Assembly: GCA_017416855.1 (NCBI GenBank)
Contig: JAFQAZ010000006.1
Span: 1-34,609, forward strand
Source: Clostridia bacterium
GTDB lineage: Bacteria > Bacillota > Clostridia > UBA1381 > UBA9506
DNA: 34,609 nt
Direction: 5' to 3'
Below, piece by piece: positions 1,837 to 22,862 of the stretch. How positions within the stretch are numbered: position 1 is the stretch's first letter; each line of letters begins with the position of its first letter. The notes under the pieces were generated by a model. It was not told the origin of the DNA. It saw only the letters and a list, made by a program, of their open reading frames with translations, and made no database searches. A program made the position numbers and the translations under genes.

Positions 1837-1855
1837 CGGCTGAAAGGACATCATT

Positions 1856-3388: not shown

Positions 3389-3421
3389 AAGTACAAAAAC
3401 AAGAGATTATTGAAAAATGAC

Positions 3422-3450
3422 TTGACAAACCTTTTGCCTTGTTGTATAAT
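3422..3450 (+). promoter_or_regulatory. Consensus sigma-A promoter of tRNA-Leu
   Basis: A perfect TTGACA (3422-3427), 17-base spacer and TATAAT (3445-3450), ending 10 bases before the tRNA. A perfect promoter is expected for a stable RNA gene. Confidence 0.85.
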
Positions 3451-3460
3451 AATCTCCTGA

Positions 3461-3544
3461 GCGAGTGTGCTGGAACTGGCAGACAGGCACGTTTGAGGGG
3501 CGTGTGTCCATGACGTACGGGTTCAAGTCCCGTCACTCGCACCA
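3461..3544 (+). tRNA. tRNA-Leu (anticodon GAG)
   Basis: The acceptor arms GCGAGTG (3461-3467) and CACTCGC (3534-3540) pair perfectly, followed by A and an encoded CCA. The D stem is CTG/CAG and the T arm is ACGGG-TTCAAGT-CCCGT. The anticodon stem CACGT/GCGTG encloses the seven-base loop TTGAGGG, giving GAG, which reads CUU/CUC leucine codons. A long variable arm marks a class II tRNA, as expected for leucine. Confidence 0.93.
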
Positions 3545-3545
3545 G

Positions 3546-3576
3546 AAAAAAGCATCGACTATGTCGGTGCTTTTTT
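3546..3576 (+). terminator. Terminator of tRNA-Leu
   Basis: AAAGCATCGA and TCGGTGCTTT form a stem with a short loop, and a T6 run follows. It starts one base after the tRNA CCA end. Confidence 0.85.
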
Positions 3577-3577
3577 C

Positions 3578-3732
3578 AATGAATTGCCTAACGGCACGAA
3601 TTGAAATCTGCTATTTCATGAATTGAGCCTTACGGCTCATGAATTGCACTTCGTGCATTATAAAGGCAATTCAATTCATGTTGTGATAACAACAATTTAT
3701 GGTGAAACCAATTCATGACAACAAAGTTGTCA
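3578..3732. repeat. Array of seven short hairpins joined by ATGAATT / AATTCAT spacers
   Basis: Seven small inverted repeats lie in a row: TGCC/GGCA (3585), TGAAAT/ATTTCA (3602), TGAGCC/GGCTCA (3624), TGCAC/GTGCA (3645), GTTGT/ACAAC (3680), TGGT/ACCA (3700) and TGACAAC/GTTGTCA (3716). The first four are joined by ATGAATT-type spacers. The last three are joined by the reverse complement, AATTCAT or AATTTAT. GAATTGCC (3581) can also pair with GGCAATTC (3664). Stem sequences differ but each is self-complementary. It resembles MITE/REP-like intergenic elements of Clostridia. No coding capacity. Confidence 0.75.
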
Positions 3733-3759
3733 AATCATTATAAAAATATCCGCACCAAA

Positions 3760-3804
3760 AAACCGTAATATGAGTTGCTAATTTAAACAACCATATTACG
3801 GTTT
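3760..3804 (-). terminator. Terminator of the first XRE gene
   Basis: AAACCGTAATATG (3760-3772) pairs with CATATTACGGTTT (3792-3804) over 13 bp. On the - strand a T-run follows, just past the XRE stop. Confidence 0.8.
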
Positions 3805-3814
3805 CTATACGTAT

Positions 3815-4159
3815 TTATTTTTCTTCAATGCCACAGGTTTTCGCATAGGCTTTCACCATTTCTAAAAGATTTGCTGTCTGCTCATTTGTCATTTCACGAA
3901 TGTATTTATTTAATATGCTTTCAACATTATGAGTTGATACACCAAACAGAATATAATCTGCATCAATATCAAGTGCTCTGCAAATATCTTTAAATTTTGC
4001 AATAGACATCCCCGACAATCCTCGTTCAATATTACTAATCTGTTGAGGATTGCAAATACCGGCTTTTTCTGACAAAACTTCCTGTGTCATCCGTCTCTTT
4101 AATCTAATTTCTTTAATTCTTTCCCCAATTTCAGCGTTATTTATATCAAATTTATTCAT
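3815..4159 (-). CDS. XRE/Cro-C1 family transcriptional regulator (module 1)
   Basis: A 114-residue protein with an N-terminal helix-turn-helix (about residues 14-70). The stretch IKEIRLKRRMTQEVLSEKAG is followed by ISNIERGLSGMSIAKFKDI and DADYILFG, the usual XRE pattern. The C-terminal 45 residues are helical and may be for dimerisation. The start has GGAG ten bases upstream. It is divergent from a SLOG-like gene at 4317. A palindrome AAATAGT-GCTTAT-ACTATTT (4183-4202) lies directly before the gene and is the likely operator, so autoregulation and joint control of the partner are inferred. Confidence 0.88.
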   Translation of the reverse strand: MNKFDINNAEIGERIKEIRLKRRMTQEVLSEKAGICNPQQISNIERGLSGMSIAKFKDICRALDIDADYILFGVSTHNVESILNKYIREMTNEQTANLLEMVKAYAKTCGIEEK

Positions 4160-4182
4160 TCTATCACTCCTACACCTATAAA

Positions 4183-4202
4183 AAATAGTGCTTATACTAT
4201 TT
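4183..4202. promoter_or_regulatory. Palindromic operator candidate for XRE module 1
   Basis: AAATAGT and ACTATTT are 7-base perfect inverted arms around a 6-base centre. It sits next to a - strand TATAAT (4203-4208), so a bound dimer would cover the start of xre transcription. A binding function is inferred. Confidence 0.5.
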
Positions 4203-4263
4203 ATTATAGATGCAATACATTTATTTTATAATGTGCTCTTATAACGAAATGTAAACCTCTGAC

Positions 4264-4292
4264 TTGACTTTAAGAAATATAAGTGTTATTAT
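4264..4292 (+). promoter_or_regulatory. Promoter of the first SLOG-like gene
   Basis: TTGACT (4264-4269) and TATTAT (4287-4292), spacer 17. Confidence 0.55.
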
Positions 4293-4316
4293 GAATTCAA
4301 ATAATAATTTGAAAGA

Positions 4317-4850
4317 ATGAGAAAAATGAGCAATAGATTACATTGTTGTTGCTTCTTTGGCCACCGGAACATCACAGAAACAGCAATTCTTAAAAAAACA
4401 ATTTATGATGTAGTTGAAGACTTAATTATAAATAAAAACGTTAGCACCTTCTTTTTTGGCAGCAAAAGTGCTTTTGATAAGCTTTGCCATAAAATTGTTA
4501 CTGAGCTAAAAGAAAAATATCCACATATTGTAAGAGTCTATGTGCGAGCGGAATTTCCGTTTATCAATGATTCATACCGTAATTATCTTTTAAAACAATA
4601 TGAAGATACATATTATCCCGAAAAAATGATTTCAGCCGGAAAAGCGGCTTATGTGGAACGCAACTACGAAATGATTAGTAAAAGTGCATACTGTGTTATA
4701 TATTATGATGAAAACTATGCCCCGCCAAAAAGGAAAAACAGCAAAAAAGATATAACTGTCTATCAACCAGAAAGTGGCACTAAAATTGCCTATAACTATG
4801 CCATTAAAAAAAGTAATGTAGTCAATGTAAAAAACAGAGTCAGTTTATAA
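4317..4850 (+). CDS. Divergent SLOG (DUF1273/YpsA-like) family protein (module 1)
   Basis: A 177-residue protein that resembles the SLOG/YpsA fold. It opens with CCCFFGHRNITE (compare TGHR in canonical members). A strand ends in FFFGSKSAFD in the place of the ISGMAMGTD loop. A later NYEMISKSAYCVIYYDENY matches the usual region before the final nucleotide-binding loop, and SGTKIAYNYAIKK closes it. SLOG domains are known or predicted to bind nucleotide derivatives or ligands. The GHR and the late SGT are kept but the central GxxxG loop is altered, so it may bind a different ligand. The start could be 4317 or the ATG at 4326; neither has a strong ribosome site. The divergent XRE gene next door probably controls it. 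Confidence 0.7.
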   Translation: MRKMSNRLHCCCFFGHRNITETAILKKTIYDVVEDLIINKNVSTFFFGSKSAFDKLCHKIVTELKEKYPHIVRVYVRAEFPFINDSYRNYLLKQYEDTYYPEKMISAGKAAYVERNYEMISKSAYCVIYYDENYAPPKRKNSKKDITVYQPESGTKIAYNYAIKKSNVVNVKNRVSL

Positions 4851-4867
4851 AAGTGGCTCTGTTTTTT
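4831..4867 (+). terminator. Terminator of the first SLOG-like gene
   Basis: AGAGTCA and TGGCTCT pair around a short loop and a T6 run follows. The 5' arm overlaps the last codons of the gene. Confidence 0.7.
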
Positions 4868-4924
4868 ATTTATATACCTTTTCCGAAAAGTTTACATAAT
4901 TTTCTAATAATCCCTTCTAATTCC

Positions 4925-4953
4925 TTGTGATTTTTCATAAATTGTGTTATACT
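4925..4953 (+). promoter_or_regulatory. Promoter of the DUF1538-PII operon
   Basis: TTGTGA (4925-4930) and TATACT (4948-4953), spacer 17, about 60 bases before the GTG start. Confidence 0.5.
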
Positions 4954-5010
4954 AATAATTGTATAGCTTTTGATTGTACACATATAATCAGACAGAAAGG
5001 AGATATCATA

Positions 5011-6531
5011 GTGAATTTAAAATTAAAAGAAAAAGTCACAGAATCCCTTTCTGCTATTTTGCCCATTACAGCCATTGTGCTGTTAATCAGCATTTTCATT
5101 ACCCCCGTTGAACTGGATAACATTGTTATGTTCACCGTTGGCGCCGTTATGCTGGTGTTTGGTATGGGCTTTTTCCAGTTTGGTGCCGAAATGGCTATGA
5201 CGCCTTTGGGCGAAGGCATTGGTGCCAGTCTTTCTAAAACAAAAAACATTCTTATTACCATCATTGTCAGCCTGATTATGGGCATTTTGATTACCATTGC
5301 AGAACCCGATTTGCAGGTACTGGCCACACAGGTGCCTTCGGTACCCAATCTTACACTGATTCTGTCCGTTGCCCTGGGTGTAGGTATCTTCCTGGTGGTA
5401 GCGGTGCTCCGAACCAGATTCCACATTAATCTTTCAGTTATTTTAATTGTACTGTACGCTGCTGTGCTTGCGTTATCCTTCTTTGTACCGAAGGATTTTT
5501 TAAGCGTGGCCTTTGACTCCGGCGGTGTAACCACCGGCCCCATTACAGTTCCCTTTATTATGGCTTTCGGTTTTGGTATAGCCTCAATGGAGCACAGCAA
5601 AGACTCCACCAGTGACAGTTTCGGTCTTGTGGCTCTCTCCAGCGTGGGTCCCATTCTGTCCGTTTTAATTCTCGGCTGCTTTTTCAGTCCGGAAGCGGCA
5701 ATTGATACGATGACGGAGAACATCGCTGTAGCCACAACCAGAGATGTAGCAAAGGCCTTTGCCTATCATCTCCCCAAATTCGCCAGGGAGGTTGCCCTTT
5801 CCCTTCTGCCCATCATTGCCGTATTTGCCGTATTCCAGCTGATTTCCAGACGATATAACAAGCATCAGATGTTAAAAATTCTTGTTGGTTTTGTTTACAC
5901 CTTCATCGGCCTGGTGCTGTTCCTCTGCGGCGTAAATGTGGGTTTTGCCCCTGTGGGTTCCGTTCTTGGCGAAAATCTTATGGCCTTTAAAGGCGGCATA
6001 ATTATCATTCCCATTGGCATCCTCATTGGTTATTATATGGTTAAGGCAGAGCCTGCCATTCAGATTTTAAATGCACAAATTCACACCGTTACAAACGGTA
6101 CCATTTCTGAAAAAGCCATCGGACAGTATATGTCCGTGGGTGTTGCTGTCAGTGTGGGCATTTCTATGATCAGAATTATAACGGGACTACCTCTGCAATG
6201 GGTTATCGTTCCCGGCTATGCCATTGCTTTGGTTATGTCCTTGTTTGTACCGAAAATTTTTGTCGGTATTGCCTTTGACTCCGGTGGCGTTGCCAGCGGC
6301 CCCATGGCCACAACCTTTTTACTGCCTATGGCAATCGGTGCCTGCAAAACTGCAGGCGGCGACCTGATGGCAGATGCGTTCGGCGTGGTGGCTCTGGTTG
6401 CCTTAACCCCGCTGATTGCCATTCAGTTTATGGGGCTGCAATATAAGATAAAATCCAGAAAGGTAGCTACCGAGGAACTCCCGGCTGTTCAGATTGAACA
6501 CGATGAAATTATAGAGCTGGAGGAAGATTGA
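5011..6531 (+). CDS. DUF1538 domain multi-pass membrane protein
   Basis: An integral membrane protein of about 506 residues with two homologous halves. The signature FDSGGVTTGPITVPF near residue 168 recurs as FDSGGVASGPMATTF near 423. Each half also has an MSL/LSF-FVPK-F segment before the signature. This two-repeat arrangement is that of DUF1538 proteins, predicted transporters of unknown substrate. I chose the GTG at 5011 because AAGGAG sits eight bases before it; an upstream ATG at 4927 would add an unlikely, non-membrane 28-residue leader that overlaps the promoter. The PII-like gene follows after one base, so it is probably a signal-controlled channel or transporter. Confidence 0.85.
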   Translation: MNLKLKEKVTESLSAILPITAIVLLISIFITPVELDNIVMFTVGAVMLVFGMGFFQFGAEMAMTPLGEGIGASLSKTKNILITIIVSLIMGILITIAEPDLQVLATQVPSVPNLTLILSVALGVGIFLVVAVLRTRFHINLSVILIVLYAAVLALSFFVPKDFLSVAFDSGGVTTGPITVPFIMAFGFGIASMEHSKDSTSDSFGLVALSSVGPILSVLILGCFFSPEAAIDTMTENIAVATTRDVAKAFAYHLPKFAREVALSLLPIIAVFAVFQLISRRYNKHQMLKILVGFVYTFIGLVLFLCGVNVGFAPVGSVLGENLMAFKGGIIIIPIGILIGYYMVKAEPAIQILNAQIHTVTNGTISEKAIGQYMSVGVAVSVGISMIRIITGLPLQWVIVPGYAIALVMSLFVPKIFVGIAFDSGGVASGPMATTFLLPMAIGACKTAGGDLMADAFGVVALVALTPLIAIQFMGLQYKIKSRKVATEELPAVQIEHDEIIELEED

Positions 6532-6532
6532 T

Positions 6533-7228
6533 ATGACAGCAGAACGTAAATCCTGTGTATTTCGCATTCTGATGCTGATTAATAATAAAAAACTAACACC
6601 AAAAGCTATGCATCTGTTTGAAACAGAGAACATTCCCATTCACAAGCAGTTTGTGGCTCATGGTACTGCCAACAGCGATATGATGGATATTTTAGGTCTT
6701 GGTGGAACTGAAAAAGACGTAATGTCCGTGGTGTTACCAAAGCCCAACGCAGACAGGTTACTAAAAAAACTGTGCGACGGGCTGGAACTGACACAGAAAA
6801 ACAGCGGGATTGCATTTACCATTCCCCTTTCCGGCATCAGCCGTATGTTTATGAAGCTCTGTGAGCAGATAAATGACAACCAGGAAAAAGAACCAAGTAA
6901 GGAGATGGAAACCATGTCTGAACATAAATATTCCGTAATTGCCGCTACCGTTAACCAGGGTTATAGCGAGGAAGTTATGAATGCCGCACGGGCCGCCGGT
7001 GCAAGAGGTGGTACTTACTTTCACAATAACTGCATTATGAATGAAGATGGCACCGGCTTTTTCGGTTCTGATTTTAATGAAGAAAAAGAAACTGTGCTGA
7101 TTATTACCGAGCAGGATAAAAAGCTGGATATTATGAAGGCCATCTGCGAAGCTTGCGGCATGCACACCGAAGCTAAAGGCTTTGTCATTTCCATGCCTAT
7201 TGATAACATCATGGGCTTAAACTCCTGA
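6533..7228 (+). CDS. Double PII-like nitrogen-regulator family protein
   Basis: A 231-residue protein made of two PII-like halves. The first covers about 5-105 (CVFRILMLINNKKLTPKAM ... GIAFTIPLSGI). The second covers about 130-231 (KYSVIAATVNQGYSEEVM ... GFVISMPIDNIMGL). Each has the beta-alpha-beta ferredoxin-like pattern ending in a conserved I-x-P-hydrophobic strand. Classical GlnB/GlnK proteins have one domain of about 112 residues and a T-loop Tyr; neither half looks classical. GGAGG precedes the start, and translation is coupled to DUF1538 (one-base gap). It very likely gates or senses for the membrane partner, as PII-like proteins do beside other transporters; the ligand is unknown. 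Confidence 0.82.
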   Translation: MTAERKSCVFRILMLINNKKLTPKAMHLFETENIPIHKQFVAHGTANSDMMDILGLGGTEKDVMSVVLPKPNADRLLKKLCDGLELTQKNSGIAFTIPLSGISRMFMKLCEQINDNQEKEPSKEMETMSEHKYSVIAATVNQGYSEEVMNAARAAGARGGTYFHNNCIMNEDGTGFFGSDFNEEKETVLIITEQDKKLDIMKAICEACGMHTEAKGFVISMPIDNIMGLNS

Positions 7229-7280
7229 TTTGCCGTAGAAAAAGGCGCAGAATGCATAAAAGAATATAGGCATAACGTAT

Positions 7281-7316
7281 AAACCGGACAGTCTGTACAG
7301 GCTATCCGGTTTTTTG
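7281..7316 (+). terminator. Terminator of the DUF1538-PII operon
   Basis: ACCGGACAG and CTATCCGGT pair, followed by a T6 run. Confidence 0.8.
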
Positions 7317-7327
7317 TTAAATTATTC

Positions 7328-7356
7328 TTGCAAAACCCTTCCTTTCATGCTACAAT
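7328..7356 (+). promoter_or_regulatory. Promoter of the MFS gene
   Basis: TTGCAA (7328-7333) and TACAAT (7351-7356), spacer 17. Confidence 0.6.
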
Positions 7357-7390
7357 ATCCCTTGATATTATTTTAAAGGAAGATTTTTTT

Positions 7391-8647
7391 ATGGAACCAA
7401 AGCACAAACATTTAAAAATATCTTGTTACTGCGCCAGTATGTCTATGTCCGTGGTGGCCAACCTGCCGCCTCTTTTGCTGTTAACCTTCCGTAATTTATA
7501 CGGCATTTCATATTCTATGCTGGGTTCCTTGATTTTAATTAACTTTTTAACACAGCTGAGTATGGATTTGTTATTTTCGTTTTTCTCCCACAAATTCAAC
7601 ATTGCCAAAACCGTCCGCTTTACGCCGGTGCTGACCAGCACAGGTCTTGCGATCTATGCTCTCACACCCCTTTTGTTTCCCAATGCGGTATATGTCTGTC
7701 TGCTCATCGGTACAGTGATTTTCTCTTCCTCGGCAGGCCTGTTGGAGGTACTGAACAGTCCCGTTTTAGCAACCATTCCCTTTAAAGACCCGGACAGAGA
7801 AATGAGCAAGCTCCATTCCGTGTATGCCTGGGGATGTGTGGGCGTTGTGCTGTTTTCCACCCTGTTTTTACAGTTTTTCGGCTCTGAAAACTGGCAATGG
7901 CTAGCACTTTTTTTGATGATTATCCCCCTGACTTCCCTTGTGCTCTTTGCCAAGGCTGAAATTCCCCCTATGCCCACACCGGAAAAGGTAAGTGGCGCCA
8001 TTAGCTTCTTTAAAAATAAAACACTGTGGCTGTTTGTTATCGGTATCTTTTTAGGCGGCTCTGCCGAATGCACTATGGGACAATGGGCCTCAGGCTATTT
8101 AGAGCAGGCTATGGGCATCCCTAAAGTGTGGGGCGATGTGTTTGGCGTTGCCCTTTTCTCCTTAACCCTTGGTCTGGGACGTACCCTTTATGGCTCTTTT
8201 GGCAAAAACATTGGCCGGGTGTTGTTTTACAGCAGCGTGGGCTCCACACTTTGTTATTTCATCGCGGCCGTTTCAGGCTATCCCCTCGTAGGCCTTGTGG
8301 CCTGTGCCTTAACCGGATTTACTGCGGCTCTTTTATGGCCGGGTAGTCTGATTGCCGTGGCAGACCGTTTTCCCACCGGTGGTGTTTTAATGTATGCCAT
8401 TATGGCCGCCGGCGGCGACCTGGGCGCTTCTTTGGGGCCTCAGTTTGTGGGTATGGTGACCGATGCCGCTATGGAAATGCCCTTCTTGATTCAGATGGCG
8501 CAAAGCTTCGGACTTTCCCCTGAGGTATTTGGCATGAAACTGGGTATGCTGACGGGGATGCTCTTCCCCCTGTTTTCCATCCCCATCTTTGCCCGCATCT
8601 GGCACAACCAGAATAAGCGGCTTTTAACAAAAACTGTTGACAAGTAA
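7391..8647 (+). CDS. MFS transporter (FucP-like subgroup)
   Basis: A 418-residue permease with about 12 hydrophobic segments in two halves and a central loop near residues 190-215 (PPMPTPEKVSGAISFFKNK). The N-terminal half, including YGISYSMLGSLILINFLTQLS, resembles the fucose/sugar permease branch of the major facilitator superfamily. The substrate cannot be told. I chose the ATG at 7391 because AAAGGAAG lies just before it; the longer reading begins inside the promoter. It has its own promoter and is not under the T-box, which starts at its stop codon. Whether it works with the downstream symporter operon is open. Confidence 0.85.
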   Translation: MEPKHKHLKISCYCASMSMSVVANLPPLLLLTFRNLYGISYSMLGSLILINFLTQLSMDLLFSFFSHKFNIAKTVRFTPVLTSTGLAIYALTPLLFPNAVYVCLLIGTVIFSSSAGLLEVLNSPVLATIPFKDPDREMSKLHSVYAWGCVGVVLFSTLFLQFFGSENWQWLALFLMIIPLTSLVLFAKAEIPPMPTPEKVSGAISFFKNKTLWLFVIGIFLGGSAECTMGQWASGYLEQAMGIPKVWGDVFGVALFSLTLGLGRTLYGSFGKNIGRVLFYSSVGSTLCYFIAAVSGYPLVGLVACALTGFTAALLWPGSLIAVADRFPTGGVLMYAIMAAGGDLGASLGPQFVGMVTDAAMEMPFLIQMAQSFGLSPEVFGMKLGMLTGMLFPLFSIPIFARIWHNQNKRLLTKTVDK

Positions 8648-8665
8648 ACGCTTCTGTGTTACAAT
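8637..8665 (+). promoter_or_regulatory. Promoter of the T-box operon
   Basis: TTGACA (8637-8642), 17-base spacer, TACAAT (8660-8665). The -35 box lies in the last codons of the MFS gene. Confidence 0.8.
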
Positions 8666-8671
8666 GTTTTT

Positions 8672-8950
8672 CATAAAAGCTGTGAACGGAAACAAGTAAG
8701 CTGGGAATGAAGCGGAGAGAAACGGCGGTTGGTGCGAGCCGGGGTTCTGAACCTGACCGAATACAGTCCGGGAGCTGCAAGGGGGAAATTTTTCAGTATC
8801 CCTTGCCGGAAACGCCCGTTATCGCGTAGGGTGGTAAAATTTTTGACTGCTTTTGCCACTCAATGAGGCAGCATCTGTGAGGATGCTGTAAACCGAGGTG
8901 GTATCACGGATATTCGTCCGTCCTCTGGAAAAGAGGACGGGCTTTTTTAT
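8672..8950 (+). promoter_or_regulatory. T-box riboswitch (probably Tyr, specifier UAC)
   Basis: All landmarks of a T-box leader are present. Stem I has AGCT/AGCT and CGGA/TCCG pairings, the AGTA motif (8695-8698), GGAGAG (8714) and the distal loop GGTGCGAGCC (8731-8740). The specifier loop reads GAATACAG (8759-8766). The CCCGTT of stem IIA/B is at 8815-8820. A stem III GCAGCATC/GGATGCTGT leads to the T-box AACCGAGGTGGTATCACGG (8891-8909). The terminator CCGTCCTCT/AGAGGACGG with a T6 run ends at 8948. Uncharged tRNA should stabilise the antiterminator. Specifier TAC followed by A would mean tyrosine; a one-base shift would give ACA (threonine). A second AGGGTGG at 8827 lies within stem II and is not the T-box itself. 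Confidence 0.92.
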
Positions 8951-9001
8951 TTTCATTTCGTCCTCTTCAGTCAAAATTTATTTATGGAAGGAATGATGAA
9001 T

Positions 9002-10540
9002 ATGGCAGTCAAATTAATTATGCTTGTGGTCTTTTTCGGTGTTATGTTAGGCGTTGGCTTTTATTGCCGGAAAAATGCCACAGATGTTTCGGGTTTTGTT
9101 TTAGGCGGCAGAAGCGTTGGCCCCTGGCTCACGGCTTTTGCATACGGCACCTCCTATTTTTCAGCGGTTATTTTTGTTGGTTATGCCGGTCAGTTTGGCT
9201 GGAAATTCGGTGTTGCCTCCACTTGGATTGGCTTGGGCAATGCATTCATCGGCTCCCTCCTTGCCTGGGTGCTCCTGGGCAGAAGAACCAGGCTTATGAC
9301 CCAGCATTTAAACACAGCAACCATGCCGGAATTTTTCGGCAAACGTTATAACAGCCCGGCGCTTAAAATTGTTGCTTCCTTAATTGTATTTATCTTTTTA
9401 ATCCCCTACACCGCGTCATTATACAACGGTTTATCCCGTTTGTTTGAAATGGCCTTCCCCGGTATTTCTTATAACATTTGCGTTGTTGTTATGGCCGTGC
9501 TCACCGGTGTTTATGTTATCGCCGGCGGTTATATGGCAACTGCCATTAACGACTTTATTCAGGGGCTCATTATGATTGGCGGTATTGTGGCTGTTATCTG
9601 GGCTGTGCTGTCCGGTCACGGCGGCTTCACCGCTGCAATGACAGAGCTTGCCCATGTGGAACATGCCATTCCCGGTGCTTACAGCTCTTTCCTTGGGCCT
9701 GATCCCTTCGGCCTGTTCTGCGTGGTGATTTTAACCTCACTGGGAACCTGGGGTCTGCCTCAGATGGTACAGAAATTCTACGCTATCAAGAGCGAAAAGC
9801 ACATTGCTAAAGGCACCATTATTTCCACCGTATTTGCCGTCATCGTAGCCGGCGGATGCTACTTTTTAGGTGGCTTTGGCCGCATCTCCGGCGTAGCAGT
9901 AGATGCTCTGGGTGCACCGATTGGCGGTTTTGATGCCATTATCCCCGCAATGCTTAATAATCTGCCGGATGTGTTAATCGGTGTTGTGATTGTGTTGGTG
10001 CTTTCCGCCTCTATGTCTACCCTTTCCTCTTTGGTATTAACCTCCAGTTCTACCCTGACCCTGGACTTAATTAAAGGTCACATTGTGAAAAATTTAGAAG
10101 AGAAAAAACAGGTTTTGATTATGCGGATTTTATTGGTTGTGTTCATTGTAATTTCTGCTTTCATTGCCATCAATAAAGATAAATTAGGCTACATTGCCGA
10201 TATGATGGGCATCTCCTGGGGTGCCTTAGCCGGTGCTTTCTTAGCACCATTCCTCTATGGCTTATATAGCAAGAAAATTTCCAAGGCTTCCGTTTGGGCT
10301 TGCTTTATCTTCGGTGCCGGTGTGATGGTGCTGAATATGGTGACGCGGGCAAGCTTCCCTGCTATGCTGCAATCTCCCATTAACTGCGGTGCTTTTGTGA
10401 TGATTGCAGGCCTTGTCATCGTTCCTTTAGTAAGTTTGTTTACCAAAAAGCCCGATGCTGCTTTAGTGGATACTATGTTCACTTGTTACGACCACAAAGT
10501 ATTGGTTTCTGCCAAAGAAGCCTTAGGTGAAGAAGAATAA
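9002..10540 (+). CDS. Sodium:solute symporter family transporter
   Basis: A 512-residue membrane protein with about 13 hydrophobic segments. Typical symporter-family features are FVLGGRSVGPWLTAFAYGTSYFSA in the first helices, GGYMATAINDFIQGLIM, and the later SMSTLSSLVLTSSSTLTLDL, which corresponds to the Na2-site helix of the family. Members carry proline, pantothenate, acetate, phenylacetate and others. I chose ATG 9002 because AAGGA (8988-8992) is nine bases upstream; ATGs at 8984 and 8993 lie before or on that site. It is the first gene after the T-box and is followed 21 bases later by an acyl-CoA synthetase. The cargo is therefore probably a carboxylic acid used in amino-acid synthesis (inference). 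Confidence 0.9.
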   Translation: MAVKLIMLVVFFGVMLGVGFYCRKNATDVSGFVLGGRSVGPWLTAFAYGTSYFSAVIFVGYAGQFGWKFGVASTWIGLGNAFIGSLLAWVLLGRRTRLMTQHLNTATMPEFFGKRYNSPALKIVASLIVFIFLIPYTASLYNGLSRLFEMAFPGISYNICVVVMAVLTGVYVIAGGYMATAINDFIQGLIMIGGIVAVIWAVLSGHGGFTAAMTELAHVEHAIPGAYSSFLGPDPFGLFCVVILTSLGTWGLPQMVQKFYAIKSEKHIAKGTIISTVFAVIVAGGCYFLGGFGRISGVAVDALGAPIGGFDAIIPAMLNNLPDVLIGVVIVLVLSASMSTLSSLVLTSSSTLTLDLIKGHIVKNLEEKKQVLIMRILLVVFIVISAFIAINKDKLGYIADMMGISWGALAGAFLAPFLYGLYSKKISKASVWACFIFGAGVMVLNMVTRASFPAMLQSPINCGAFVMIAGLVIVPLVSLFTKKPDAALVDTMFTCYDHKVLVSAKEALGEEE

Positions 10541-10561
10541 TCAAAAGAAAGGGTTTCTCAT

Positions 10562-12196
10562 ATGCCTATTACTGATTACTTAGAAAGAAATGCCCGCTTA
10601 TACCCCAACGACGTCAGCTTGGTGGAGGTGAATCCGGAACATCAGCCGGATAGCAATGTTTCCTGGCGGGAATATAACTTAATTCAATCCACCGGATGTG
10701 AAAAATATCGCCGTGAATTGACCTGGAAGCAGTTTGATGTGGCCGCAAACCGGTTTGCCAATCTGCTCCTGACCCGCGGTGTGAAAAAGGGCGATAAGGT
10801 TGCCATTTTAATGATGAACTGCATCGATTGGCTGCCTATTTACTTCGGCATTTTAAAAGCCGGTGCTATTGCCGTTCCTATGAATTTCCGCTTTTCTGCT
10901 GAAGAAATTGAATACTGTGCTGATTTAGCCGATATTTCAGTGCTGGTCTTCGGCCCCGAGTTTATTGAACGCTTAGAGGCTGTTCGTGAGCATTTAAACA
11001 TCCGCGACTATTTCTTTGTGGGTAAAGATACCCCTGCTTTTGCAGATAATTACACAGAAATGATTACCTATTGCTCTTCCTGGCCGCCGGCTGTGGAGAT
11101 TTCTGACGAAGATGACGGTGCCATCTACTTCTCTTCCGGCACCACCGGTTTCCCGAAAGCCATTCTTCATCGACACAAAGCATTGGTTTTATCCTGCGAG
11201 GTTGAACAGAAGCATCACTCTCAGTCACGGGAGGATGTGTTCCTCTGTATTCCGCCTCTTTATCACACCGGTGCTAAAATGCATTGGTTCGGTTCTCTGC
11301 TATCCGGTTCAAAGGCGGTTATCCTTCGCGGCATCAAGCCGGAATGGATTCTGCAGACGGCATCAGAAGAAAAAGCAACCATTATCTGGCTCTTGGTGCC
11401 CTGGGCACAGGATATTTTAGATGCCATCGACCGTGGGGATATTCAATTAGATAATTACCGTCTGGCACAATGGCGCTTAATGCACATTGGTGCACAGCCC
11501 GTCCCCCCCTCTTTGATTAAAAGATGGAAAGAAGTGTTCCCCCATCACGATTATGACACCAACTATGGCCTGAGTGAATCCATTGGCCCCGGTGCTGTGC
11601 ATCTGGGTGTGGAAAATATACATAAGGTGGGCGCCATCGGCGTTCCCGGCCATAAATGGCAGGTTAAAATTGTGGATGAACAAGGCAATGAAGTGCCCCG
11701 CGGCAGTGTGGGAGAGCTTTGCTTAAAGGGTGATGGCGTGATGAAATGCTATTACAAGAACCCCGAAGCTACAAAAGAAGTGTTAACCGAAGACGGTTGG
11801 CTATTAACCGGTGATATGGCAAAAACAGATGAAGATGGCTTTATTTATCTGGTTGACCGTAAAAAGGATGTTATCATTGTGGGTGGCGAAAACATTTACC
11901 CCGTTCAGATTGAAGATTTTCTCCGCTCCAACGAAAAAATTAACGATGTGGGCGTGATTGGTCTTCCTGATGAGCGTCTGGGCGAAATTACCGCCGCCAT
12001 CATTCAGTTAAAAGAGGGCATGACCGCCACTGTGGAAGAAATGAACGAATTCTGCATGGCTCTGCCCCGCTACAAACGGCCTAAGAAAATTATTTTTGCT
12101 GAAATTCCCCGTAATGCAACGGGAAAAATTCAGAAAAATACCTTGCGTGAGCAGTATGGTGCGGCAAGGTTGGTGGAAGCCGCCACAACCAAATAA
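10562..12196 (+). CDS. AMP-forming acyl-CoA synthetase (ANL superfamily)
   Basis: A 544-residue adenylate-forming enzyme that should activate a carboxylic acid as acyl-AMP and pass it to CoA. The core motifs are YFSSGTTGFPKAI (A3, about 187-199), YGLSESIGPG (A5, about 334) and GWLLTGDMAKTDEDGF (A7, about 413). The hinge motif is VDRKKDVIIVGGENIYP (A8), and the catalytic lysine sits in NATGKIQKN (about 520). The acid-binding pocket cannot be read by eye, so the substrate is unknown. It shares the T-box transcript with the symporter, and AAAGGG precedes the start. The pairing suggests import plus activation of the same acid, controlled by shortage of one aminoacyl-tRNA. Confidence 0.9.
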   Translation: MPITDYLERNARLYPNDVSLVEVNPEHQPDSNVSWREYNLIQSTGCEKYRRELTWKQFDVAANRFANLLLTRGVKKGDKVAILMMNCIDWLPIYFGILKAGAIAVPMNFRFSAEEIEYCADLADISVLVFGPEFIERLEAVREHLNIRDYFFVGKDTPAFADNYTEMITYCSSWPPAVEISDEDDGAIYFSSGTTGFPKAILHRHKALVLSCEVEQKHHSQSREDVFLCIPPLYHTGAKMHWFGSLLSGSKAVILRGIKPEWILQTASEEKATIIWLLVPWAQDILDAIDRGDIQLDNYRLAQWRLMHIGAQPVPPSLIKRWKEVFPHHDYDTNYGLSESIGPGAVHLGVENIHKVGAIGVPGHKWQVKIVDEQGNEVPRGSVGELCLKGDGVMKCYYKNPEATKEVLTEDGWLLTGDMAKTDEDGFIYLVDRKKDVIIVGGENIYPVQIEDFLRSNEKINDVGVIGLPDERLGEITAAIIQLKEGMTATVEEMNEFCMALPRYKRPKKIIFAEIPRNATGKIQKNTLREQYGAARLVEAATTK

Positions 12197-15566: not shown

Positions 15567-15584
15567 TATAAGATTGTTAAACGG

Positions 15585-15619
15585 GACTGTAAAAATTAAT
15601 TTTTACAGTCTCTTTTTTT
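15585..15619 (+). terminator. Terminator of hom
   Basis: A perfect 26-base palindrome (15585-15610; arms begin GACTGTAAAAA) is followed by a T-rich run. Confidence 0.85.
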
Positions 15620-15699
15620 ATTTTTTTAAAAATATCATTGGCTTTTTCTGCAAAATATGATACAATATAAATAAGAATTTGTTACGATTAATTTCGACA

Positions 15700-16077
15700 T
15701 TTTTTTAACAGTTATACACAGGGATGTTGATAAAAATAAAACGAAAAATCAAGGTTTTAAGCACTTTTTATTTTCTAGTTTTTCTCATAAAACGTCATAT
15801 TACTGCCGGCTGTGAGAGTTTTCAACAAGAAACTGTTTATTGTGTGTTAATCCCTGTCGAAAAAGGTGTGCATAGATTTTTTGTTTACAAAAAATGGAAA
15901 AACTGTTTTTTTTGCCTGTGGATTATACAAATCCTCCACAAGTTATTCACAGAGTTATCCATAAGAACAAAAAGCGTTATAATCTTAAAAATTAGACTTA
16001 TTAACAGTTTGCACAACCCTTACTACTATAACTATTAAATTATATATATTTTTATTATAAGAAACGGAAGTGAAAAA
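15700..16077. other. Chromosomal replication origin (oriC) candidate
   Basis: This gene-free AT-rich region holds four DnaA-box-like 9-mers, each one mismatch from TTATCCACA: TTATACACA (15712), TGTGGATTA inverted (15917), TTATTCACA (15943) and TTATCCATA (15955). A weaker TCCTCCACA is at 15932. The last three form a tight cluster. Downstream come a weak box GTTTGCACA (16007), a CTA/TTA-rich run TTACTACTATAACTATTA (16020-16037) like DnaA-trios, and an AT-rich tract to 16061 that could unwind. dnaN starts at 16078. parS sites and two outward rrn operons agree. A 104-codon frame at 15724-16038 is probably spurious. Confidence 0.8.
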
Positions 16078-17181
16078 ATGAAATTTTCCTGTAAAAGAGC
16101 TGATTTATTAGAAGCTGTCAATATTGTAGAAAAAGCTGTAGCTTCTAAAAGCACAATGAACATTTTAGAAGGAATTTACATTGAAGCAAAAGACAATGAA
16201 ATTCGTTTTTTAGGTAACAATTTAGAGCTTTGCATTGACTGTAACATTCCCGGTGTGATTGACAAAAAAGGCAATTGTGTTGTGAAAGCCAATTTATTTT
16301 CCGATGCAGTTAAAAAATTACCTTCTTATGTAGAAGATGCACAGATTGAAGTAAACGAAAGCAATGTAATTTTGCTCTCCTGCGGTAATGCAAAGTTTAA
16401 CTTCTCCACTGCTTCTGCTGATGAATTTCCCCGTCCTCAGGAAATTAATATGATTGATGAAATTTCTATTGAAGAACATCTTTTAAAGAATATGATCAGA
16501 CAAACTGTCTACGCTGTGTCACAAAATGACACAAAACCCTACCTCACCGGTATTTTGTTTGATATAAAAGATAAAACAATCAATGTTGTTGGCTGTGATG
16601 GCTACCGTTTAGCCATTCGCAGAGAAGAAACCACACACGAAGGCAATTTAAAATTTATTATGCAGGGCAAAACAGCTCGTGAACTCCTTTCTTTGTTAGG
16701 AGAAACAGATTATGAGGTGAGTATTAAAGTCAGCGATAAGCAGGCTCAACTCTCTTTGAAGAACTGCACCGTAACTACTCGTTTAGTTGATGGTGAATAT
16801 TTAAATTATGAAGGTGTTGCCAAACACGAAAACACCTTACATATTGTAACTGATACAAGAGAAATTACTGATTCTGTAGATCGGGCCGCTCTTATTGCAT
16901 CAGAAGCAGTAAAAGCACACGTTACGCTCTCTATTGAAGACGGTCAGGTAAACATTAATTGTGAAACAGTTCTTGGTCAGGTTAAGGATAAATTTGAAGT
17001 TGAAATGCAGGGCGAACCCATTGAAATAGCTTTTAATCCCCGGTATTTATTAGAAGCATTTAAAAATGCTGATTGTAAAGATATTAAACTCAGCTTTTCA
17101 ACAGCATTAAATCCTGTTGTGATTCAGCCGGTGGAAGGGAACAGCTTCCATTATATTGTTTTGCCGGTTCGTATTCATTAA
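16078..17181 (+). CDS. dnaN: DNA polymerase III beta subunit (sliding clamp)
   Basis: A 367-residue ring clamp that tethers polymerase to DNA. Three topologically equal domains of about 120 residues are visible. The first begins MKFSCKRADLLEAVNIVEKAV. The middle carries VGCDGYRLAIRREE. The end VEGNSFHYIVLPVRI is the usual C-terminal strand that contributes to the partner-binding pocket. Length is normal. GGAAG lies eight to nine bases before the ATG. It directly follows the origin, without dnaA, and leads into an RNase M5-like gene one base after its stop. Confidence 0.97.
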   Translation: MKFSCKRADLLEAVNIVEKAVASKSTMNILEGIYIEAKDNEIRFLGNNLELCIDCNIPGVIDKKGNCVVKANLFSDAVKKLPSYVEDAQIEVNESNVILLSCGNAKFNFSTASADEFPRPQEINMIDEISIEEHLLKNMIRQTVYAVSQNDTKPYLTGILFDIKDKTINVVGCDGYRLAIRREETTHEGNLKFIMQGKTARELLSLLGETDYEVSIKVSDKQAQLSLKNCTVTTRLVDGEYLNYEGVAKHENTLHIVTDTREITDSVDRAALIASEAVKAHVTLSIEDGQVNINCETVLGQVKDKFEVEMQGEPIEIAFNPRYLLEAFKNADCKDIKLSFSTALNPVVIQPVEGNSFHYIVLPVRIH

Positions 17182-17182
17182 T

Positions 17183-17746
17183 ATGAAAACCATAAAAGAA
17201 ACCATTGTTGTAGAAGGAAAATATGATAAAATAAGACTGTCTCAGTTATTTTCTGCCAATATTATTCAGACAGATGGGTTTATGATTTTTAAAAATAAAG
17301 AAATGCTTGCTTTATTATCCCGTTTAGCTGATGAAACCGGTATTATTATTTTAACCGATTCAGACAGTGCCGGTTTTAAAATAAGAAACTATATAAAAAA
17401 TTGTCTGGCAGGAAAAAATGTGAAGCATGCTTTTATTCCTTCTTTGGAAGGAAAAGAAAAACGAAAGGATAAACCGGGAAAAGAAGGACTTTTAGGTGTA
17501 GAAGGTATGCGTGAGGAGGCTCTGATTGCAGCTATGGAGCAGGCTTCATGCAGCTATTGTGATGAAAAGGAAAAAATTACCAAATATGATTTTGTAATGC
17601 TTGGTCTGTCCGGCGGCGGCAACAGTCGAGAAAAGCGGCAGACTTTGTCAAAGAAATTAGGCTTACCGGTAAGACTTTCAGCTAATATGTTACTGGATAT
17701 TATTAATGCGTTGTATACAAAAGAAGAATTTTTATCATTATTTTAA
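17183..17746 (+). CDS. rnmV: RNase M5-like TOPRIM protein
   Basis: A 187-residue protein with an N-terminal TOPRIM domain: IVVEGKYDKIRLSQL (catalytic Glu11) and ILTDSDSAGFKIR (Asp59 and Asp61), then KVEG-like positions replaced by FIPSLEGKEKR. The C-terminal part (about 110-187) resembles DUF4093 of RNase M5. RNase M5 matures 5S rRNA in Bacillota. The ATG at 17183 lies one base after dnaN stops and has no clear ribosome site, so translation is probably coupled. Being between two rrn operons and next to dnaN is notable. Other TOPRIM nucleases cannot be fully excluded. Confidence 0.8.
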   Translation: MKTIKETIVVEGKYDKIRLSQLFSANIIQTDGFMIFKNKEMLALLSRLADETGIIILTDSDSAGFKIRNYIKNCLAGKNVKHAFIPSLEGKEKRKDKPGKEGLLGVEGMREEALIAAMEQASCSYCDEKEKITKYDFVMLGLSGGGNSREKRQTLSKKLGLPVRLSANMLLDIINALYTKEEFLSLF

Positions 17747-17752
17747 AAGAAT

Positions 17753-17794
17753 CTCCATATATTATATTAATTTATGATATATGGAGGTTTTTTT
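17753..17794 (+). promoter_or_regulatory. Terminator-like hairpin that contains the ribosome site of the next gene
   Basis: CTCCATATAT (17753-17762) pairs perfectly with ATATATGGAG (17777-17786), loop 14, followed by T7 and then the ATG at 17795. The 3' arm carries the GGAG ribosome site. It can act as a terminator, as a translation block, or both. Confidence 0.65.
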
Positions 17795-18553
17795 ATGCAG
17801 GCAGCCATTATTCATTTTGAAGATATATTCAGAAAAAAAGATCAGTTTTTTATAGGAAAAACCTTAAAAAAGATAAAAAGAAACATAAAAATAGAAAATA
17901 ATGAAATTCCCGTTTATATTTTGCCTGTTACAAAAGAAAAACCGTCAGTTAAAGCAATAAAACGGTTTATTACATATTTAAAGGAAGAAAAAATTAAATA
18001 TATTATATTTTCAGAAGCAGCACTCCCCTTTCGTTCTTTATTTGAAAATATAAATGAAGGATTTGAATTTTTTTCAGGCATGCATGTTATACATCACAAA
18101 ATTTTCGATATACTAAGAAAATGTGCTGAAAAAAATAATGTGGAGTTATCAGCAAGTACGGTAACTTTGTTAACTGATTATCCTGAGCAGGCTAAAGAAA
18201 TGATTTTAAAAATATATCGATATGTTAAAAAAATCAGAATCAAAACAAAATATAAAGAAAAGTTTGCACCTTTGCTGGAATACTTTTTGTACGAATACGG
18301 CTTATTTATTATTTGCGATGAAAATGTGGAAAATATTGATAATGAGATTTGTTTACCGATTCAACACTTAAATATAGAAGTAAATTTCAAATGTAAAAAA
18401 AGCGTTGGTGATATTTCTTCCTTAATTAATTTAAATCAGGAAGGTTTGGAATTTATCATTTTTTCTTTATATCATTCATTGTCAGAAGAAATGGTTAAAA
18501 GATTTTGTAAGGAATATATTCCAAAAATTAGTAAAATTCAAAATAAAGATTGA
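17795..18553 (+). CDS. Unrecognised alpha/beta protein
   Basis: A 252-residue protein I do not recognise. It is Lys- and Ile-rich, with no signal peptide or membrane segment. Alternating hydrophobic strands and helices are visible, for example IKYIIFSEAALPFRSLF and VELSASTVTLLTDYPEQAKEMILKIYRYVKKIRIKT, the latter like a strand-helix-strand of a Rossmann-type fold. The end (LINLNQEGLEFIIFSLYHSLSEEMVK) is helical. GGAGG within the preceding hairpin fixes the ATG at 17795. Codon use is more A/T-rich than in its neighbours, fitting the AT-rich origin flank. It sits between rnmV and greA; the greA promoter overlaps its stop codon. Confidence 0.75.
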   Translation: MQAAIIHFEDIFRKKDQFFIGKTLKKIKRNIKIENNEIPVYILPVTKEKPSVKAIKRFITYLKEEKIKYIIFSEAALPFRSLFENINEGFEFFSGMHVIHHKIFDILRKCAEKNNVELSASTVTLLTDYPEQAKEMILKIYRYVKKIRIKTKYKEKFAPLLEYFLYEYGLFIICDENVENIDNEICLPIQHLNIEVNFKCKKSVGDISSLINLNQEGLEFIIFSLYHSLSEEMVKRFCKEYIPKISKIQNKD

Positions 18554-18620: not shown

Positions 18621-19097
18621 ATGTCTGAAAAGACAGTTTTTTTAACCTATGAAGGGTTAAAAGAGAGAGAACGTGAACTGGAATATTTAAAAACAGAAAA
18701 AAGAAAAGAAATTTCTGAAAAAATCAAAGTAGCTTTAGGTTTTGGTGATTTATCTGAAAATGCAGAATATGATGAAGCAAAGAATGAACAGGCTGAAGTT
18801 GAGTTAAAAATCGTTCGTTTGGAAAAAATGCTGAAGAATGCTAAAATTATTGATAACGACGATGTTTCAACCGATGTTGTTTCTATGGGCATCAAAGTAA
18901 GAATTTTAGATATTGATATGGAAGAAGAAGAAACCTATAGTATTGTTGGTTCTGAAGAAGCAGATCCTATGGAGAATAAGATTTCCGATGAATCTCCTAT
19001 GGGTAAAGCAATTTTAGGTGCTAAGGTTGGCGATATTGTCAGCGTAGAGGCTCCAAATGGCGCTTTTGAGGTTAAAATCTTAGAAATTAGCAAATAA
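18621..19097 (+). CDS. greA: Transcription elongation factor GreA
   Basis: A 158-residue factor that enters the RNA polymerase secondary channel and stimulates cleavage of backtracked RNA. The N-terminal coiled coil (about 5-75) carries [18 protein letters not shown] at the tip, with the acidic Asp and Glu pair required for activity. The C-terminal FKBP-like domain ends [22 protein letters not shown]. The length is exactly usual for the family. I chose ATG 18621 because GAAAGGG ends about nine bases upstream; in-frame starts at 18603 (TTG) and 18612 precede or abut that site. A parS site overlaps its last stop base. Confidence 0.96.
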
Positions 19098-19112
19098 GTT
19101 TCACGTGAAACA
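19097..19112. promoter_or_regulatory. parS: parS centromere site 1
   Basis: AGTTTCACGTGAAACA differs from the canonical parS palindrome TGTTTCACGTGAAACA only in the first base. ParB (20050) should nucleate here. Confidence 0.9.
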
Positions 19113-19165: not shown

Positions 19166-19181
19166 TGTTTCACATGAAACA
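19166..19181. promoter_or_regulatory. parS: parS centromere site 2
   Basis: TGTTTCACATGAAACA differs from the parS consensus at one central base (G to A). It lies 14 bases before the -35 box of parA. Confidence 0.85.
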
Positions 19182-19267: not shown

Positions 19268-20053
19268 ATGGCTAAAGTAATTGTTGTAGCAAATCAAAAA
19301 GGCGGTGTTGGAAAAACCACCACTGCTGTAAATTTATCTGCTTGTATTGCTACTTTAAAGAAAAAAGTTCTTTTAATTGATTTTGACCCTCAGGGGAATG
19401 CCAGTAGCGGTGTTGGTGTGGATAAAGAGGCAGTTGAAAACTCTGTTTATGATGTTCTAATTAATCAAATGCCTATTAAACAAACAATTATTGAAACAAA
19501 ATTAAAAAATCTTTCTGTGTGCCCTGCAAACATTGACCTTGCCGGTGCTGAAGTTGAGTTAGTTTCGATGAACGACAGAAATAATCTCTTAAAAAAAGCT
19601 ATTAAAGAGGTTAATGATGAGTATGATTACATAATCATAGACTGTCCGCCATCCTTAGGATTGCTGACTTTGAATGCATTTTCTGCAGCAAATAGCGTTT
19701 TAGTGCCCATTCAATGTGAATATTATGCGTTGGAAGGCTTAAGTATGTTAACAAAAACCATTAAAAGCTTAAAACAGGATTTAAATCCTAAGTTAACTTT
19801 TGAAGGTGTTTTATTGACAATGTTCGATTCGAGAACAAATCTTTCCAATCAAGTAATGGAAGAAGTAACAAAATTCTTCCCTGAAAGTGTATTTAAAACA
19901 GTTATCCCACGAAATGTGCGCCTTTCAGAAGCTCCGGGCTATGGTGAACCCATCATTACATATGATAAATATTCAAAAGGTGCCCGCAGTTATTTGAAAT
20001 TGGCAAAGGAAGTCATTAAAAATAATCAGAAAAAGGAGTCAGATAATTCATGA
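19268..20053 (+). CDS. parA: Chromosome-partitioning ATPase ParA (Soj)
   Basis: A 261-residue Walker-type ATPase that works with ParB to separate origins and, in Bacillus, to control DnaA. The deviant Walker A KGGVGKTT (residues 11-18) has the signature lysine. Walker A' is LLIDFDPQGNASSGVG, and Walker B DYIIIDCPPSLGLLTLNA. The length matches chromosomal Soj. GAAAGGG lies somewhat far (about 14 bases) before the ATG. parB overlaps its end by four bases. Two parS sites upstream and the nearby origin make this the chromosomal, not a plasmid, system. Confidence 0.96.
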   Translation: MAKVIVVANQKGGVGKTTTAVNLSACIATLKKKVLLIDFDPQGNASSGVGVDKEAVENSVYDVLINQMPIKQTIIETKLKNLSVCPANIDLAGAEVELVSMNDRNNLLKKAIKEVNDEYDYIIIDCPPSLGLLTLNAFSAANSVLVPIQCEYYALEGLSMLTKTIKSLKQDLNPKLTFEGVLLTMFDSRTNLSNQVMEEVTKFFPESVFKTVIPRNVRLSEAPGYGEPIITYDKYSKGARSYLKLAKEVIKNNQKKESDNS

Positions 20054-20901
20054 AAAAAGGGTTGGGTAAAGGTCTTGGTGCGCTACTGAACACAGAAGAA
20101 GCAGTTGATAGCACATTAGATCAGAGTTTTGAGCTTAAAATATCGCAGATAGAACCGAATAAAAGTCAGCCCAGAACAGAGTTTGACCCTGAAAAACTGG
20201 AAGTTCTGGCAGATTCAATAAAAAAATATGGCGTTTTGCAGCCTATTGTGGTAAAAAAATTAGATAATGGTTTTTATAAAATTATTGCCGGTGAACGTCG
20301 TTGGCGAGCCTCGAAACTGGCTGGACTAAAGAAAATTCCTGTTGTTATCCGTGATTATGATGATCAGGAAACAATGGAAATTGCTTTAATTGAAAACCTT
20401 CAACGTGAGGATTTAAATCCTTTTGAAGAGGCCAGAGGCTATCGTGAATTAATGGATTTATTCAGTATGACGCAGGAGCAAGTGGCACAAAAGGTAGGTA
20501 AAAGCCGTTCTGCAGTTGCAAACAGTATTCGACTTTTGTCATTATGTGATGAAATTAAAGATTTAGTATTGAAAAAAGAATTAACGGTTGGTCATGTTCG
20601 TGCTTTACTTGGCACCGATGATGAGGGTGTTCAGTTAATGGCAGCTCGTAAAATTGTAGCCGACGGTTTAAATGTTCGCCAGACAGAAGCACTTATTAAA
20701 AGTTTATTGCAACCAAAAAAAGAAAAGAAAAAAAATGCAGTTGATGAAGAATTGCGTCGTTATTTGACAACTTTAGAAAAAAAGCTTTCCGATTCATTGG
20801 GAACCAAGGTTACCATTCAGAGTAAAAAGAATCATGGCAAAATAGAAATTGAATATTATAATAACGATGATTTTGAAAGAATTATGAATATTATCAGTTA
20901 A
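20050..20901 (+). CDS. parB: Chromosome-partitioning protein ParB (Spo0J)
   Basis: A 283-residue DNA-binding CTP-dependent clamp. The N-terminal ParB/Srx-like domain has LKISQIEPNKSQPRTEF and the nucleotide-binding GERRWRASKLAG motif. ENLQREDLNPFEEARGY follows. The helix-turn-helix MTQEQVAQKVGKSRSAVANSIRLL (about 139-162) reads parS. The C-terminal segment (about 235-283) is for dimerisation. Its ATG overlaps the parA stop (ATGA), so translation is coupled. Its two likely targets lie 0.9 kb upstream. Confidence 0.96.
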   Translation: MKKGLGKGLGALLNTEEAVDSTLDQSFELKISQIEPNKSQPRTEFDPEKLEVLADSIKKYGVLQPIVVKKLDNGFYKIIAGERRWRASKLAGLKKIPVVIRDYDDQETMEIALIENLQREDLNPFEEARGYRELMDLFSMTQEQVAQKVGKSRSAVANSIRLLSLCDEIKDLVLKKELTVGHVRALLGTDDEGVQLMAARKIVADGLNVRQTEALIKSLLQPKKEKKKNAVDEELRRYLTTLEKKLSDSLGTKVTIQSKKNHGKIEIEYYNNDDFERIMNIIS

Positions 20902-21045: not shown

Positions 21046-21564
21046 ATGAATTTGGAAGTGTTAGGATATGCCATTCCTTTTGAATGGCTTGTATATGGAA
21101 GTTGTATTCTTTGTTTGATGGGATTTTTATTTGCTTTCATCGGCATGATTGTTTCCATTCAATTGAAAAGAAGATATAAGAAAATTTTAAAAGATGGTGT
21201 CGGTCGTGATATCACAGAAGCTATTGCAAATTATTATAAAAAATGTAGTGATATTATTGACGATTTTAAGGAAGCGGAAGATCGCATCATAAAATTGGAG
21301 GCTGAAAGTAAAGCCTGTGCCAAAAAAGTGGGTGCCATCCGGTATAATGCTTTTGGCGGCAATAATTCCAATTTAAGCTTTGCAGCAGCCGTTCTAGATG
21401 AAAGTGATTCCGGCTTTGTCATTAACGGTGTGTATTCCAGACAGCAAACAACAACCTATTTAAAACCAATTCATAATGGAAAATCATTATTTGAGCTTTC
21501 AGAAGAAGAGCAGGAAGCAATTCATACAGCGCAGTTAAACTATGAAACAATTATCAACAGATAA
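21046..21564 (+). CDS. DUF4446 family membrane protein
   Basis: A 172-residue protein with one N-terminal membrane helix (about residues 12-38, YGSCILCLMGFLFAFIGMIVS) and a basic stop-transfer stretch KRRYKK. A predicted coiled segment follows (DIIDDFKEAEDRIIKLEAE), then the conserved core VGAIRYNAFGGNNSNLSFAAAVLDESDSGFVINGVYSR. This matches DUF4446, often found just after parB in Clostridia, function unknown. AGGAGG precedes the ATG. The spacing to serS is 29 bases. Confidence 0.88.
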   Translation: MNLEVLGYAIPFEWLVYGSCILCLMGFLFAFIGMIVSIQLKRRYKKILKDGVGRDITEAIANYYKKCSDIIDDFKEAEDRIIKLEAESKACAKKVGAIRYNAFGGNNSNLSFAAAVLDESDSGFVINGVYSRQQTTTYLKPIHNGKSLFELSEEEQEAIHTAQLNYETIINR

Positions 21565-21575
21565 ATCACAGATAA

Positions 21576-22862
<1,287 letters not shown>

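Follow-up and report, generated by a model that had tools for sequence, protein, structure and literature searches.

A 511-bp intergenic region immediately upstream of dnaN is, in our estimate, very likely (probability about 0.88) the chromosomal origin of this Clostridia bacterium. It would represent the oriC2 half of a Clostridia-type origin, linked to dnaN and parAB and unlinked from dnaA. The region lies in what we call the window, i.e., the whole 34.6-kb contig that was analysed (G000:C5) from a 2.37-Mb draft genome of 32 contigs. An initial annotation had placed an origin beside dnaN, and this interpretation is supported by an unwinding module, the positions of parS sites, the GC skew of relatives, and the lack of a box cluster at dnaA. 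The features concerned are collected in Table 1.

Table 1. Features of the proposed origin and of the conserved dnaN-linked block, in window coordinates
Feature	Position	Strand	Remarks
hom-dnaN intergenic region	15567..16077	.	proposed chromosomal origin (oriC2-type); box cluster above chance; block alignable genus-wide
Hairpin and T-run	15584..15623	+	probable terminator of hom; left edge of region; fold z -6.6
Extended -10-like TATGATACAAT	15656..15666	+	conserved in genus alignment; about 420 bp upstream of dnaN
DnaA-box-like TTTTTAACA	15702..15710	+	
DnaA box TTATACACA	15712..15720	+	fits TTWTNCACA
DnaA-box-like TTATCAACA	15725..15733	-	
DnaA-box-like TTTTCAACA	15819..15827	+	kept in most of genus
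DnaA-box-like TAATCCACA	15917..15925	-	within CCTGTGGATTA block
DnaA box TTATTCACA	15943..15951	+	several relatives have TTATCAACA here
DnaA-box-like TTATCCATA	15955..15963	+	
Unwinding module, box 1, TTATTAACA	15998..16006	+	
Unwinding module, box 2, GTTTGCACA	16007..16015	+	abuts box 1
CCC cluster, then DnaA-trio TACTACTATAACTATTA	16017..16037	+	CCC 16017-16019; trio 16021-16037
AT-rich stretch	16038..16061	.	presumed first DNA unwound
dnaN, sliding clamp	16078..17181	+	Pfam; sole copy in assembly
rnmV, RNase M5-like (Toprim + DUF4093)	17183..17746	+	Pfam
Fast-evolving ORF	17774..18553	+	no Pfam match; this genus only
greA	18621..19097	+	Pfam
parS site AGTTTCACGTGAAACA	19097..19112	.	
parS site TGTTTCACATGAAACA	19166..19181	.	
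parA (soj)	19268..20053	+	Pfam
parB (spo0J)	20050..20901	+	Pfam
DUF4446 gene	21046..21564	+	Pfam
serS	21594..22862	+	closes conserved dnaN-linked block; named by sequence and position

The proposed origin occupies the exact interval from hom to dnaN (both genes supported by Pfam) and is 74% A+T. The claim that a DnaA-box cluster and AT-rich DNA lie between these genes was borne out, the cluster standing far above shuffled sequence. Five boxes with no more than one mismatch to TTATCCACA begin at 15712, 15725 (minus strand), 15917 (minus strand), 15943 and 15955; dinucleotide shuffles of the 511 bp yielded a mean of 0.15, and none of 1000 reached five. Across the whole window, 19 such boxes were found, against 9.9 expected. 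Further, the region holds six TTWTNMACA sites, a number matched by 0/1000 shuffles. In a search that covered about 190 kb of the 2.37-Mb genome, the density of TTWTN[A/C]ACA was greatest in the origin region (6 per 400 bp) and did not exceed 2 in the 73 kb around dnaA and the 80 kb around rpmH. No perfect TTATCCACA occurs among the boxes of 15567-16077. The earlier statement that all boxes deviate by one base thus holds with respect to TTATCCACA, but it fails for TTATACACA and TTATTCACA, which conform to TTWTNCACA, the accepted DnaA-box consensus (PMC7561715); the emphasis laid on the deviation was partly misplaced. The origin block can be aligned across the genus despite a change of the upstream gene. 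Its TATGATACAAT element is a probable promoter that would read through the origin into dnaN; a dnaN transcript begun there would traverse the entire origin.

Further elements lie at the right-hand end of the region. The tandem boxes, the CCC cluster, the DnaA-trio and the AT-rich DNA appear, from their sequence, to constitute the basal unwinding module of the Clostridia dnaA-dnaN gap, here without dnaA. Two boxes and DnaA-trios form the basal unwinding system in B. subtilis (PMC8287927), and in C. difficile it is the trio-bearing oriC2, lying between dnaA and dnaN, that is unwound (PMC7561715). The initial annotation had overlooked the tandem boxes, the CCC cluster and the trio. The 40 bp of lowest GC content between 15500 and 16150 begin at 16020 and contain 3 G/C. 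A perfect match to the trio pattern occurs once in the 2.37-Mb assembly, in the origin region, and a single-mismatch match once elsewhere; the reversed control pattern likewise has one match in the assembly, and the trio score was equalled in 1 of 100 shuffles. Tandem boxes and a trio are found just before dnaN in the family of the window genome (f1), as they are in families in which dnaA adjoins dnaN; in related families of the latter kind, the module occupies the same place in nearly all sequences. The trio calls are weak in some species (L004, L006, L010 and L011); degenerate trios occur in part of the genus and among the f2 and f5 sequences sampled.

Downstream, the predicted succession of dnaN, an RNase M5-like gene, greA and parAB proved correct, the complete order being dnaN-rnmV-ORF-greA-parA-parB-DUF4446-serS. 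The ORF at 17774-18553 shows 34-43% identity within the genus; in other genera the corresponding gap measures about 0.9-1.2 kb. The two parS sites of the window are 3.0-3.1 kb from the start of dnaN, and none is near dnaA. The family shares this pattern: each of the 10 family genomes searched has its clear parS sites within about 3-5 kb of dnaN on the same contig, whereas the dnaA contigs of these ten genomes have none. One genome (G008) carries a single extra site on another short contig. In the f3 and f4 genomes that have parS, the sites are on the dnaA-dnaN contig. The position of parS is independent support for an origin at dnaN.

The classical origin genes lie elsewhere. As the initial annotation had surmised, the window contains neither dnaA nor recF, both being found on contig C1; the single full-length dnaA is there in the order dnaA-S4-recF-remB, which is the textbook order minus dnaN. 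Its statement that gyrB is missing beside dnaN was also correct (two gyrB/parE-type genes reside on C21 and C14); C21 also carries rpmH. It had further suggested that dnaA might lie on the far side of an rRNA operon; no such operon was detected in the window at the Rfam threshold. A distant dnaA with a box cluster of its own had been named as evidence against an origin beside dnaN. The gene is indeed distant, and no cluster (oriC1) lies upstream of it: the upstream sequences of 12 family genomes contain 0-2 sites per 600 bp. The corresponding figure is 4-7 in three f2/f3 genomes and 0-2 in f4. An origin at dnaA was rejected, given the absence there of both boxes and a skew switch. An origin near rpmH or gyrB is unsupported; no convincing box cluster or skew switch marks rpmH, apart from a weak change seen in G008. 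At its end, about 2 kb from dnaA, the dnaA contig runs into a large serine-recombinase-like gene beside a tRNA-Leu-like sequence (L003, 12163-13317); this gene probably belongs to an integrated element.

All genomes of the family are draft assemblies, and the dnaA contig of the window genome breaks off inside that recombinase gene. It could therefore be argued that faulty assembly or binning has parted genes that are truly adjacent. We find this scarcely credible: dnaN lies in the interior of long contigs (one of 165 kb in G001, where dnaA has a different contig), S4-recF-remB follows dnaA directly, and the arrangement recurs in independent assemblies from 5 genera. In 15/15 family genomes in which both genes were found (5 genera), dnaA and dnaN are on separate contigs. 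The dnaA gene retains S4-recF-remB and lacks dnaN. For its part, dnaN is followed by rnmV and greA in all family genomes examined, and then by parA-parB-DUF4446-serS wherever the contig extends so far; the gene upstream varies.

In the other families of the order (f2, f3 and f4), dnaA and dnaN are about 1.2 kb apart or have a contig end between them. Within the family the split is a fixed trait; other families of the order nearly always keep the genes together. That relatives retain dnaA beside dnaN marks the split as derived within the order. In a class-wide sample of 127 genomes from about 56 families (tables read by eye), separation was seen only in f1, f15 and f38; in f38, greA precedes dnaN and recF follows it. 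One f8 genome in the sample has dnaA and dnaN divergent and close together. At locus L168 (G160, contig C3), dnaN and dnaA are divergent and separated by about 1.4 kb, and the dnaN side carries tandem boxes and a trio. The split is thus rare but not unique in Clostridia (3 of about 56 sampled families), and in one of the three dnaN lacks the origin. In that case (f15, genome G181), the genes are 175 kb apart on one contig and dnaN has moved with recF-remB; no module precedes this dnaN, and the stretch from 1.31 to 1.58 Mb shows no skew switch. The f15 loci L161 (G181, 1.52-1.54 Mb) and L152 have the order dnaN-recF-remB, and the origin lies elsewhere. This case indicates that the linkage has been lost by more than one route. 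Further, because dnaN moved there without module or switch, the joint test of the two features discriminates. We found no report of the f1 arrangement in Clostridia in the open-access literature searched.

GC skew, computed on stretches of sequence, was one of the checks that the initial annotation had proposed, and across relatives the switch falls at dnaN, not at dnaA. About half of 15 sequences reach their cumulative minimum within 45-306 bp of dnaN. Negative skew was recorded upstream of dnaN for at least 12 of 15 sequences and upstream of dnaA for 1 of 8 (Fisher p 0.006), counts that come from related species and are therefore not independent. The switch is clear in most relatives; in G010 and G011 the upstream skew is positive. 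The window itself has almost no skew over the 15 kb to the left of dnaN, and its local minimum is 10 kb away. With so flat a skew on this side, evidence of this kind is drawn mainly from relatives. Rearrangement, possibly a recent inversion, is the probable cause of this flatness. Most genes at 784-12196 of the window point toward the origin, head-on to a leftward fork, and relatives with negative skew differ in this respect. On the same flank, a T-box leader (RF00230; 8673-8928) precedes a sodium/solute symporter-like ORF (8984-10540) that probably encodes an amino-acid transporter.

These observations bear on whether the true origin could be elsewhere, be it near dnaA, near rpmH or at an unrecognised site, with the boxes serving only to regulate dnaN and the skew switch reflecting a local gene-strand effect. 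DnaA boxes do also serve gene regulation, the f15 dnaN parted from dnaA without carrying an origin, and the left flank of the window has no clear skew. Yet a regulator of dnaN needs neither tandem boxes, a trio and an AT-rich tract nor nearby parS; neither a box cluster nor a skew switch marks dnaA, rpmH has little to offer, and the f15 dnaN, which moved alone, misses module and switch alike. We thus consider an origin elsewhere improbable. Less probable still is that an active origin here is accompanied by a second one firing elsewhere. Several contigs do show irregular skew, and multiple origins are used by some cyanobacteria whose skew is irregular (PMC7198777), but the sole perfect trio match of the assembly is in the origin region and the clear parS sites are at dnaN, the search for box clusters having covered about 190 kb of this genome.

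The reading we favour is an origin between hom and dnaN. Under this proposal, oriC2 was kept upstream of dnaN, joined to the rnmV-greA-parAB-serS block, with dnaA-S4-recF-remB elsewhere. DnaA encoded at a distance would occupy both the box array (15702-15963) and the two abutting boxes (15998-16015), and its filament would extend along the trio. The AT-rich DNA would then be opened up to dnaN and the helicase loaded; segregation of the new origins would fall to ParB, bound at the parS sites 3 kb away. We infer DnaA binding, unwinding and actual initiation at this region from its sequence; we likewise infer that dnaA, rather than dnaN, did the moving. In f4, few boxes lie upstream of dnaA yet the gene adjoins dnaN, which suggests a stepwise path. 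Plausibly, oriC1 was lost first, leaving a one-part origin, and dnaA then parted from oriC2-dnaN, an order suggested by few outgroups.

The initiator itself differs in this family. The domain IV signature is GGRNHATI or GGRNHATV in 12/12 of its DnaA proteins read (one without a G), as opposed to GGRDHTTV in E. coli and most Bacillota; the changes are D433N and T435A in E. coli numbering. Residues D433, H434 and T435 have been named as base-contacting (PMC7561715). These facts raise the possibility that DnaA specificity was altered and the boxes drifted to TTWTNAACA, such that initiator, origin sequence and gene position changed together. At position 6 of the boxes, A outnumbers C by 51 to 18 in f1 and by 27 to 22 in f4 (Fisher p 0.048). 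However, f4 retains D433 though boxes with A at position 6 are enriched there too, and two f1 genomes of different genera (G012 and G007) have C at this position in both module boxes. These exceptions leave the link between D433N and specificity weak, and we regard the idea as doubtful. The signature is variable in the order and its neighbours (L015-L043), where GGRDHTTV, GNRDRTTV, GKDRSTV, GGRHYTTV and GGRNHATI were all encountered.

Bacillota origins are usually sought via dnaA, and linkage of the two is commonly taken to tie the supply of initiator to the copy number of the origin. The family described here offers a natural test of that linkage, as the module stays with dnaN and the segregation system, leaving dnaA free. 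Origin-placing tools keyed on dnaA would misplace the origin in these gut species.

Among known systems, the closest parallel is the bipartite oriC of Bacillota such as B. subtilis and C. difficile (rnpA-rpmH-dnaA-dnaN), with which this region shares tandem boxes, a GC-rich spacer, a DnaA-trio and an AT-rich tract upstream of dnaN. It differs in that dnaA is neither between the halves nor nearby, no boxes lie upstream of dnaA, and parAB and serS are directly downstream. Because the two defining features, an adjacent dnaA and oriC1, are absent, we class it as a variant of the bipartite origin. In Synechococcus elongatus and other cyanobacteria, as here, the origin is beside dnaN, at the skew shift point, and dnaA is encoded separately (PMC7198777). 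That phylum is distant, and the present origin has a Clostridia-type trio module and linkage to parAB; by analogy, it would work like the dnaN-linked cyanobacterial oriC without being a member by descent. The f15 case resembles it in the unlinking of dnaA and dnaN only, since dnaN there left with recF-remB and took neither module nor switch. Finally, E. coli also has its oriC away from dnaA (PMC4285127), but dnaN stays with dnaA in that organism, whereas here it stays with the origin.
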